DNA from: Actinomycetota bacterium
Lineage (GTDB): Bacteria > Actinomycetota > Acidimicrobiia > Acidimicrobiales > Ilumatobacteraceae
Direction of reading: 5' to 3'
DNA length: 64,000 nt
Assembly: GCA_009726095.1 (NCBI GenBank)
Contig: WLMZ01000005.1
Location: forward strand, 1 to 64,000
Part shown: in pieces, positions 40,802-43,906 of the stretch
How positions within the stretch are numbered: the first letter of the stretch is position 1
Layout of the letters: each line of letters opens with the position of its first letter
Made by a program: the position numbers and the translations under genes
Notes under the pieces: generated by a model
Told to the model about the DNA's origin: nothing
The model's input: only the letters and a program-made list of their open reading frames with translations
Database searches by the model: none

Positions 40802-41131
40802 TCACGAGTCGGGCGGCACCATCTCGGGGGCGGGGTCGACACCGTGCAGAAAGCCGCTCTCGCCGAATCGTCTGATCGCGGCTTCCACGTCGGCCTCCAC
40901 GGCGGTGGATGGCAAGGAGAAGAGCCGAGCAACCCGCGCGCAGATTTCCGACACCGTTGCCCGGCCATCGCAACCGGACCAGATCACCATCGATGTCCGG
41001 TTCAGCAGCGCCGAGTGGCGGCTGCTCGTGTCGTACAACACGGCCTCGTCATCGAGATAGGCCGCAACGACGCTTGCACCCGGAATCGGCACGAACCCCG
41101 ATCTGACCACCTCGTCGGCGAAAGGCATCAT
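40802..41131 (-). CDS. PqqD-like protein 3
   Basis: ASVVAAYLDDEAVLYDTSSRHSALLNRTSMVIWSGCDGRATVSEICARVARLFSLPSTAVEADVEAAIRRFGESGFL; ATGA overlap with the upstream kinase gene. Confidence 0.78.
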   Translation of the reverse strand: MMPFADEVVRSGFVPIPGASVVAAYLDDEAVLYDTSSRHSALLNRTSMVIWSGCDGRATVSEICARVARLFSLPSTAVEADVEAAIRRFGESGFLHGVDPAPEMVPPDS

Positions 41132-41961
41132 GCACCGACCAATGGACGGACCAGCTCGATCGCTTCCGACACGTGTGCAAAGCGGAGTCGATAACCGGGC
41201 ACGACCGTGGCGAGCTGTTCCAGCGCCCGGAACACCGGCTCACCCGACAAGCCCAGCGTCGTCGAGTTCAGCACGAGCGCGTGCAGCGTGGCCGCGCGAC
41301 TGATCGGCACCAATTCCGCCGCGTCGTTCCATTCGAGAAAGACGATGGCGACCAGCGGCACGGGTGAGGTCTCGGCCACCGCCCCCAGCTCGCTTGCCGC
41401 GAGAAACCATTCGTCGCCGAAGTAGTCGCCGTGGCCAGCGGGCATGTCCGGCAGCTCGTCGAGCAGGCCACGACCGCCCGAGCGGAGCATGATCGGACGA
41501 GCATACGGATGCACCATGAGCGAGGCGACGTCGATGGGCGCAAGGTCGTCGCTGAGATGACGCCAACCGAGCTGAGCTGCCGCCGCGGCGATGGTGCTCT
41601 TACCGCTGCGCGACTGCCCACACAACGCAACGGCCCCGAGCGGCCCTGCAGTGACGGCAGCATGCAACACCGGCCACGTGGCCCGTGACAGCTCGGCGCG
41701 ATGGTTCACCTCCCAGGCGATGACTGCGACGATTCCGAATCTCGACACGAACCCCTCGCACATCTCGATCTCCCCAGACGGATGCTGCAGGGTGACCTCG
41801 TACGAACCATCCGGCATCGACATCGCTCGCAGAACGCTCAGCTCGCCGTCGGCTGCGGGAAGGTCGCGGTAGCACCGGTCAATGACCTCCACGAGCGCCG
41901 TATCGTCGGATTCAAAGCTGAACGAAAAGCCGAGCACGTGGTATGCGCGAGTTGTCGTCAT
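41128..41961 (-). CDS. HprK-related serine kinase-like protein with intact P-loop
   Basis: GAVALCGQSRSGKSTIAAAAAQLGWRHLSDDLAPIDV: Walker A plus SDD-type acidic motif. Start refined to ATG 41961. Confidence 0.75.
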   Translation of the reverse strand: MTTTRAYHVLGFSFSFESDDTALVEVIDRCYRDLPAADGELSVLRAMSMPDGSYEVTLQHPSGEIEMCEGFVSRFGIVAVIAWEVNHRAELSRATWPVLHAAVTAGPLGAVALCGQSRSGKSTIAAAAAQLGWRHLSDDLAPIDVASLMVHPYARPIMLRSGGRGLLDELPDMPAGHGDYFGDEWFLAASELGAVAETSPVPLVAIVFLEWNDAAELVPISRAATLHALVLNSTTLGLSGEPVFRALEQLATVVPGYRLRFAHVSEAIELVRPLVGA

Positions 41962-43151
41962 CGACGGTCGAGTACTTCCGCGATGAGTCCCGGCACTGTG
42001 GCCAGATCGTCGACCGTCAACCGATAACCGGGGACCACCCGGGCCAACGCAACCAGATCGTCGCACCACTCCTCGCGGGCGTGGGCGGCCACCAGCAGCA
42101 TCGGTTGCAGCGCGGCGACGACGTATGCCGGGTCGAGCGCCTCAAGTCGGGTCGGTTCGCCAGGGGCATGCACCACGATCACCATCGCGCCGAGCGGCGC
42201 TGGCCCAGCAAGACGGGCGAAACCGAGTGCCGATGCGGCCAACGGTTGATGCCAGCCGACGTACTGCTCGCAGCCAGATGGCGTGGAAGGCTCCACTCCC
42301 AACGATCGCCAGCCCTCTTCGGTCTGGGAGATGGGCGACGGCCAGGGTTGAGCGACGAAGGTGGCCGGGTCCACCACCACGACCTCATCGGCCATGTAGC
42401 CGAACCCGGCGCGCAGCAGGGACAACATCGTGGTGGTCTTCCCTGCGCCCCAACTGCCGGTCAGCAACGCGGCCCGGCCGCCATGCTCCACGGCAGCAGC
42501 ATGGAACGTGACCGGACGGTTCGACACCGTCTCGAACACCAGACCCGTCAGCAGCTCCTGCAGCACGCCGTCGTCGTCGGCACCAGGACCGCACCCGCGG
42601 CCATCGATCTCCGCTGCCCACGAGCGCTGCCCGTCGGGGCCATCGGATCGACGAACCACGACCGCATGATCTGATTCCACTGCAGGACGGGACAGCAACA
42701 GGTCTTCGAGCCGATCGGCGATGAAGGCCGCCAGCGCCAACTCCTCGACATCAACGACAAATGCGGAGCCGAGGCCGGCAAACGGTCCTATCCGGGTCAT
42801 CCCCGGCGCAACAGCAAACCCAGGCGGTGCAGGTACCGGAGCCGCCGTCGGACGTGCGGCCAAGGCATCTGTCGCCGGCGGCTCGTGCTCGGTGTCGAGC
42901 AATAGCCCCATTCGGGTAAACCCGGCAACGGCAGAGTTGACCTCCGTGCGGACCATGTCGGGATCGACACCGAAGAACTCGGCCACCTCAGCGACGATGT
43001 CGTCAATGGCGCGGAATCCATCGCACAGCAGCCAGATCGCCGTCGCACTCGCGTTCAGTGGGACGACTGAGGCATTCGACCGTATGTAGACAACCGAACC
43101 GGCGCCGATGATCCAGGTTCGTGCGGCGCCCGGAACGGGCGCACGGGTCAC
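41958..43151 (-). CDS. PqqD-HprK fusion protein with intact P-loop
   Basis: N-term SVVYIRSNASVVPLNASATAIWLLCDGFRAIDDIVAEVAEFFGVDPDMVRTEVNSAVAGFTRMGLL (PqqD-like); C-term FHAAAVEHGGRAALLTGSWGAGKTTTMLSLLRAGFGYMADEVVVVD. GTG start 43151 overlaps the preceding stop. Confidence 0.75.
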   Translation of the reverse strand: MTRAPVPGAARTWIIGAGSVVYIRSNASVVPLNASATAIWLLCDGFRAIDDIVAEVAEFFGVDPDMVRTEVNSAVAGFTRMGLLLDTEHEPPATDALAARPTAAPVPAPPGFAVAPGMTRIGPFAGLGSAFVVDVEELALAAFIADRLEDLLLSRPAVESDHAVVVRRSDGPDGQRSWAAEIDGRGCGPGADDDGVLQELLTGLVFETVSNRPVTFHAAAVEHGGRAALLTGSWGAGKTTTMLSLLRAGFGYMADEVVVVDPATFVAQPWPSPISQTEEGWRSLGVEPSTPSGCEQYVGWHQPLAASALGFARLAGPAPLGAMVIVVHAPGEPTRLEALDPAYVVAALQPMLLVAAHAREEWCDDLVALARVVPGYRLTVDDLATVPGLIAEVLDRR

Positions 43152-43906
43152 GGCAGGTTCGCGCTGCAGGCCTGTGCGCCGCTGAACACCGTGTCGTAGG
43201 TGGTGGTGGGCGACGAATAGTTGACGTTGACCACCTGGTTCAGCGTGTTGAACACGGGGGTCACCGACGTTGACACGTACGTGACACAGCGGTAGGCCTT
43301 GACGGCACCAAGGCCAGCGCACACCACCCGCACCGACAGCGAGACGCTGGAGTACATGTTGAAGCTGCCGGAGTTCGCGTTGCCCTCGACAAATGCGTTG
43401 CCGCTGGTGGGGAAGGTCTTGGAGTAGTAGGCGCCGGGCGTGACGGTCTGCCACGTGGTCTGGCTGCTGCTCAGCTCGTACGGCGAGCCGGTCTTGCCGG
43501 ACTTGTACGCCGCCGTCCACTTCCACTGGAACTGCACGACCGGTGCGGTCGGGCTGCAATGGCACGGACCCTCGACGCCAGGGCCGCTGGACAGCGGGGG
43601 AACCTGGTAGTTGACGACGGAGCTGACGTTCCAGCGGTAGTTCTTGATGGTGCCACCACCGACGTAGGTCCACGTGGTCGTGCCGAGCACGCCGCCACCG
43701 GGCCCGAAGCCGGGCTGATCGATCTTGGGGATGCACTTGGGGGTACCGACACCCGCAGCATGGGCCACACCGCTCAACAACGTGGGGGCTGTCCATGCAA
43801 TGGCACCACCGACGGCCAACTTCTTGAGTGCAGCACGCCGATCGGTGTGGTCACCCAGAGTCGTTGCAGATGTTTCTGAGGAATCAATGTCCGCGCTCAT
43901 CGCCAC
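43148..43906 (-). CDS. Secreted protein with twin-arginine-like signal; candidate substrate of the PqqD/HprK cluster
   Basis: DRRAALKKLAVGGAIAWTAPTLLSGVAHAAG signal; mature region rich in S/T/Y/V/G with six Cys. First gene of the minus-strand overlapping operon. Confidence 0.65.
   Translation of the reverse strand: MAMSADIDSSETSATTLGDHTDRRAALKKLAVGGAIAWTAPTLLSGVAHAAGVGTPKCIPKIDQPGFGPGGGVLGTTTWTYVGGGTIKNYRWNVSSVVNYQVPPLSSGPGVEGPCHCSPTAPVVQFQWKWTAAYKSGKTGSPYELSSSQTTWQTVTPGAYYSKTFPTSGNAFVEGNANSGSFNMYSSVSLSVRVVCAGLGAVKAYRCVTYVSTSVTPVFNTLNQVVNVNYSSPTTTYDTVFSGAQACSANLP

Follow-up and report, generated by a model that had tools for sequence, protein, structure and literature searches.

A candidate PqqD-guided modification cassette for a Tat-exported protein within an exopolysaccharide locus of an actinobacterium

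The window analyzed here is a stretch of DNA of 64,000 nucleotides, on the minus strand of which four open reading frames, all checked in the sequence, follow one another in the order Tat-signal protein, PqqD–HprK-related kinase fusion, HprK-related kinase, and PqqD protein. These frames and their three junctions (GTGA at 43148/43151, ATGA at 41958/41961, and ATGA at 41128/41131) lie where a sequence-only reading had placed them, and its domain identities also held. Pfam detected PqqD above its cut-off in two of the genes, the fusion (35.9 bits) and the last one (40.1 bits), and NCBIfam revealed similarity to HprK-related kinase A (TIGR04352) in the fusion (43.3 bits) and the third gene (73.6 bits), against an equivalog cut-off of 200. 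For the Tat gene, ATG 43900 is a likelier start than GTG 43906. The same reading had taken the tight overlaps to indicate stoichiometric co-production. However, in-frame 4-bp overlaps were present in 45 of 110 close same-strand pairs (41%) in the window and 20 related loci, indicating that they are ordinary here; they are silent on stoichiometry and were discarded as a sign of special coupling. The order of the four genes is conserved in a congener (G213, contig JANYCT010000057.1), as are the flanking cassette genes and the type of locus around them, and there too the Tat and fusion genes overlap by 4 bp.

A unit bounded at 40802-43906, as originally drawn, proved too narrow. The four genes are best explained as the central part of a protein-modification cassette that is larger and self-contained, at approximately 38233-45334. 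This region of about 38.2 to 45.3 kb contains an NTP_transf_5 enzyme, five PqqD domains, two intact kinases, and two P-loop-less HprK-like proteins, and the five PqqD domains found in a search of the genome all lie inside it. The features are listed in the table.

Table. Features of the cassette, with window coordinates
Feature	Coordinates	Strand	Basis or remark
NTP_transf_5 nucleotidyltransferase-family protein, true start probably near 39252	38233..39333	-	Pfam PF14907, 113 bits
PqqD protein, 87 aa	39233..39496	-	Pfam
PqqD protein, start possibly 39619	39580..39990	+	Pfam
HprK-like protein without P-loop, apparent pseudokinase, 255 aa	40012..40779	+	Family A4 versus A2, hhalign
Stand-alone PqqD protein, 109 aa	40802..41131	-	Pfam PqqD, 40.1 bits
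HprK-related kinase, 277 aa	41128..41961	-	Intact H100, P-loop G115-K121, D138-D139
PqqD–HprK-related kinase fusion, 397 aa	41958..43151	-	Intact H217, P-loop G232-K238, D255
Tat-signal secreted protein, 250 aa, proposed client	43148..43900	-	Mature part predicted mainly beta, without known family
Conserved leader DHTDRRAALKKLAVGGAIAWTAPTLLSGVAHAAG, aa 17-50, proposed recognition signal	43751..43852	-	Congener identity, profile A1, kinase co-occurrence
PqqD domain and P-loop-less HprK-like domain fusion, start possibly 44048	43952..45334	+	Divergent from Tat gene

The neighbors of the cassette are exopolysaccharide genes encoding glycosyltransferases, UDP-glucose dehydrogenase, a sugar transferase, an acetyltransferase, and a deacetylase. 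The first three of these activities favor a reading in which the kinases and the NTP_transf_5 enzyme have polysaccharide precursors as substrates or control exopolysaccharide synthesis, and the Tat protein, a surface protein with a structural or carrier role, is simply expressed alongside them. Elsewhere in the exopolysaccharide locus, genes for chain-length/tyrosine-kinase-like proteins and for membrane proteins were recognized by eye in two paralogous sets (window 49827-52837 and 55273-58217). Inspection by eye also revealed a 1,464-aa surface protein with IPT/TIG-like repeats (window 22-4416) and a pentapeptide-repeat protein with an N-terminal membrane segment (window 4505-5584), and a CxxCxxCC zinc/iron-chelating family protein is encoded beside the cassette (window 45252-45848). 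A scan of the genome contigs with profile A3 gave six loci, and the viral contigs searched contained no relative.

The Tat protein has the twin arginine, the hydrophobic stretch, and the AxA of a Tat signal, and TatC is encoded in the genome. Its score against the NCBIfam Tat signal model was borderline (16.2 bits, just under the cut-off of 16.7). A Pfam search of the protein returned no family, and its structure model was weak (pLDDT 39.5). The two congeners share 91% identity over the leader (aa 17-50), compared with 52% over the mature part, and the leader also exceeds every cassette enzyme compared in this pair (43 to 68%). Four-fold degenerate sites differ equally, at 60% in the leader and 56% in the mature part, indicating that conservation of the leader is due to constraint and not to recent exchange. 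A leader profile (A1; RR..LKK...W.AP) was built from nine sequences, some of them taken beside cassettes and five obtained from a whole-protein search blind to neighbors. Across Actinomycetota, this profile matched secreted proteins whose mature parts are unrelated. Neither a conserved acceptor residue in the mature parts nor a shared C-terminal residue was found among these candidate clients; the window client ends in Pro and has no C-terminal Ser. Many client C-termini are a Cys-containing beta strand and some carry LPxTG, with nothing universal among them. Giant secreted proteins, each about 2,200 aa long, adjoin HprK/NTP5 genes and small W.AP-leader proteins at two loci (L043:9194-15796 and L049:8060-14752).

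A shared, constrained leader in front of unrelated mature parts would also suit a proofreading or chaperone function, in which PqqD/HprK binds the twin-arginine leader and releases it in an ATP-dependent manner, leaving no covalent mark on the client. Leader chaperones of the NarJ/TorD type are a precedent.

Leader and kinase were compared across a class sample of 395 genomes, 33 of which have a strong leader match. The kinase was carried by 30 of these 33 genomes versus 34 of the 362 others (p 7e-24). Counted per genus, it was present in 23 of 25 with the leader versus 25 of 158 others (p 7e-14), and within the family it was present in 13 of 14 leader genomes versus 9 of 87 others (p 8e-10), although all p-values given here overstate independence because the genomes are related. 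The genes also lie close together. In the class sample, 24 of 48 leader genes were within 10 kb of a kinase, compared with an expected 0.4, and when seeds among the class matches were excluded, 20 of 43 strong matches still were. It had been anticipated that homologs of the secreted protein would always be found next to PqqD-HprK genes. This held at the genome level, where the opposite pattern, of homologs occurring mainly without the kinase genes, was not what we found; among individual genes, roughly half of those for leader proteins lie more than 10 kb from a kinase, indicating that orphan clients exist.

In a sample drawn from the whole phylum, a kinase or PqqD gene lay no more than 5 kb from 12 of the 15 leaders that have W..P, versus 1 of the 7 Tat signals that lack it (p 0.007). 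The contrast is weaker in the class sample, since some linked leaders lack the motif and 29 of the 67 leaders that have it are unlinked. With several linked leaders lacking W..P, the motif was abandoned as an absolute leader rule.

A single reading frame encodes a Tat leader, an LPFTG sorting signal with a membrane segment, and an HprK domain in two genomes that belong to one genus (L155:5965-7335 and L156:6008-7366). In Pseudomonadota, the annotated HprK-related kinase A operons of Sphingomonas parapaucimobilis and Vibrio alfacsensis encode kinases that both score over the equivalog cut-off. The first gene of each operon encodes a small Tat protein that lacks an annotation, and genes for PqqD, the kinase, and a nucleotidyltransferase come after it. 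In V. alfacsensis, the PqqD position is occupied by an unannotated 84-aa open reading frame (L148:6715-6966), which has no NCBIfam match and was assigned by position and appearance. The Tat protein was absent from two of four Pseudomonadota plasmid loci, and the kinases there are more distant. Among 20 kinase loci picked for having no leader found nearby, one had a leader and two had fusions. A second cassette type encodes PqqD-HprK, mostly with glycosyltransferase 2 and NTP_transf_5 genes, and has no Tat protein (L159, L161, L162, L163, L164, L054, and L055). The rule that the kinase always accompanies a Tat protein was therefore dropped, and the client rule holds for one cassette class, not for every HprK-PqqD pair.

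The glycosyltransferases of this related cassette type again fit a role in polysaccharide synthesis. Such a role, however, leaves unexplained why the leader is the most conserved part, why leader and kinase co-occur for unrelated mature proteins, and why Tat–kinase fusions and five PqqD domains exist, and we regard it as unlikely. The comparative evidence instead supports well a client link between the Tat protein and the kinase/PqqD enzymes, as predicted from these sequences. The proposal that the secreted protein is the client had been made from the gene overlaps, which lend it no support, and it now stands on the comparative data.

Catalytic competence of the kinases was assessed from conserved residues. 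In an alignment of 16 relatives of kinase family A2, the only invariant positions were the His before the P-loop strand, Gly, Gly, and Lys of the P-loop, and the following Asp. These residues fit the His-Lys-Asp-Asp catalytic set of lasso-tailoring kinases (PMC9266682). The P-loop-less proteins of family A4 are related to family A2 (hhalign, 93.8%, E 1.8e-7, 230 columns), and no P-loop was found in that family. Pseudokinases of this kind could serve as binding modules for a chaperone, but a pure chaperone would have no need of invariant kinase catalytic residues or of an NTP_transf_5 enzyme, and a proofreading function without covalent modification is in our judgment quite improbable.

The cassette kinases resemble HPr kinase/phosphorylase in fold and in their catalytic His, P-loop Lys, and Asp. 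Their best PDB sequence matches were HPr kinases (E 3e-10), and the AlphaFold model of the fusion (pLDDT 78) matched PEP carboxykinases and HPr kinases. However, the window kinases fall far under the family score, and no match to HPr (PF00381) was found in the genome, which is 87.8% complete. This finding indicates that they are not HPr kinases proper and that their target must be another. The earlier label HprK is thus appropriate in the sense of an HprK-related kinase only.

We propose that the Tat-exported protein is tagged inside the cell before export, probably with phosphate and perhaps with sugar. The client leader would have two roles, as a twin-arginine export signal and as a handle for the PqqD domains of the cassette. 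PqqD domains elsewhere bind leader peptides; here, PqqD would bring the folded precursor to an HprK-related kinase, which would use ATP to place phosphate on one or more side chains of the precursor in the cytoplasm. The NTP_transf_5 enzyme may next attach a sugar or nucleotide to that phosphate, comparable to the action of PsmN on pseudomycoidin, and the P-loop-less HprK-like proteins probably aid substrate binding or regulation. Binding by PqqD may also keep the precursor off the Tat translocon until modification has taken place. Proteins that take the Tat route are exported already folded, so this route would suit modification in the cytoplasm before secretion.

From what was observed directly, namely, the genes, their catalytic residues, leader conservation, co-occurrence, co-localization, and gene fusion, we infer PqqD–leader binding, phosphorylation, sugar transfer, and export control. 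That PqqD-guided phosphorylation, perhaps glycosylation, of a Tat-exported protein is what this cassette does, much as in phosphorylated lasso peptides but with a full-size protein as the substrate, has in our estimation an even chance of being correct. The broader proposal is more tentative: that a widespread route exists by which folded proteins are phosphorylated, perhaps glycosylated via the phosphate, and then exported, with the Tat leader doubling as a leader recognized by PqqD.

The NCBIfam names for the HPr-rel-A kinase and PqqD chaperone state no target, and among the papers searched, none had the term HprK-related kinase. Across much of the phylum, this exported-protein leader and these enzymes occur together, a pattern that points to the target so far lacking for a widespread enzyme system. 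Because the leader profile predicts a client from sequence, it can be used to look for clients in many genomes and makes the client question directly testable. If true, the proposal would join leader-guided peptide modification with Tat export of folded proteins and would extend leader-guided tailoring from small peptides to full-size surface proteins.

Two known systems invite comparison. Phosphorylated and phosphoglycosylated lasso peptides, such as paeninodin and pseudomycoidin, likewise involve a PqqD-type B1 protein, an HprK-homologous kinase with the His-Lys-Asp-Asp set, and a nucleotidyltransferase (PMC9266682, PMC8498205). In pseudomycoidin, PsmK is the kinase and PsmN then extends the phosphate (PMC8498205, PMC9266682), and the lasso kinase and nucleotidyltransferase together yield phosphoserine with hexoses (PMC9266682, PMC8498205). 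The stand-alone PqqD protein of the window had as its sole, weak PDB match the lasso-peptide protein TbiB1 (E 0.033). The PqqD domains and this pairing of kinase and nucleotidyltransferase could suggest that the cassette makes a conventional RiPP, with the Tat protein an accessory. In contrast to lasso systems, the window client is a full-size Tat protein of 250 aa that lacks the C-terminal Ser of lasso substrates, the cassette contains no recognizable cyclase, short precursor gene, or lasso precursor, and the genome has no match to the B2 transglutaminase-like protease (PF13471). A lasso peptide cluster was excluded on the basis of the missing B2 protease and the form of the client, and a conventional RiPP is very unlikely.

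The HPr-rel-A system (TIGR04352, TIGR04353) also encodes PqqD, HprK-related kinase, and NTP_transf_5 together, and its operons in Sphingomonas and Vibrio also start with a Tat protein. The window proteins nevertheless score below the model cut-offs (74 and 43 versus 200 bits for the kinases; 28 versus 35 bits for PqqD, 28.3 against the TIGR04353 chaperone model), and the window cassette differs in having additional pseudokinases and PqqD copies and a W..P leader. We conclude that the cassette is of a kind already known but functionally uncharacterized, for which sequence comparison provides good support for the client hypothesis and the proposed chemistry follows by inference.
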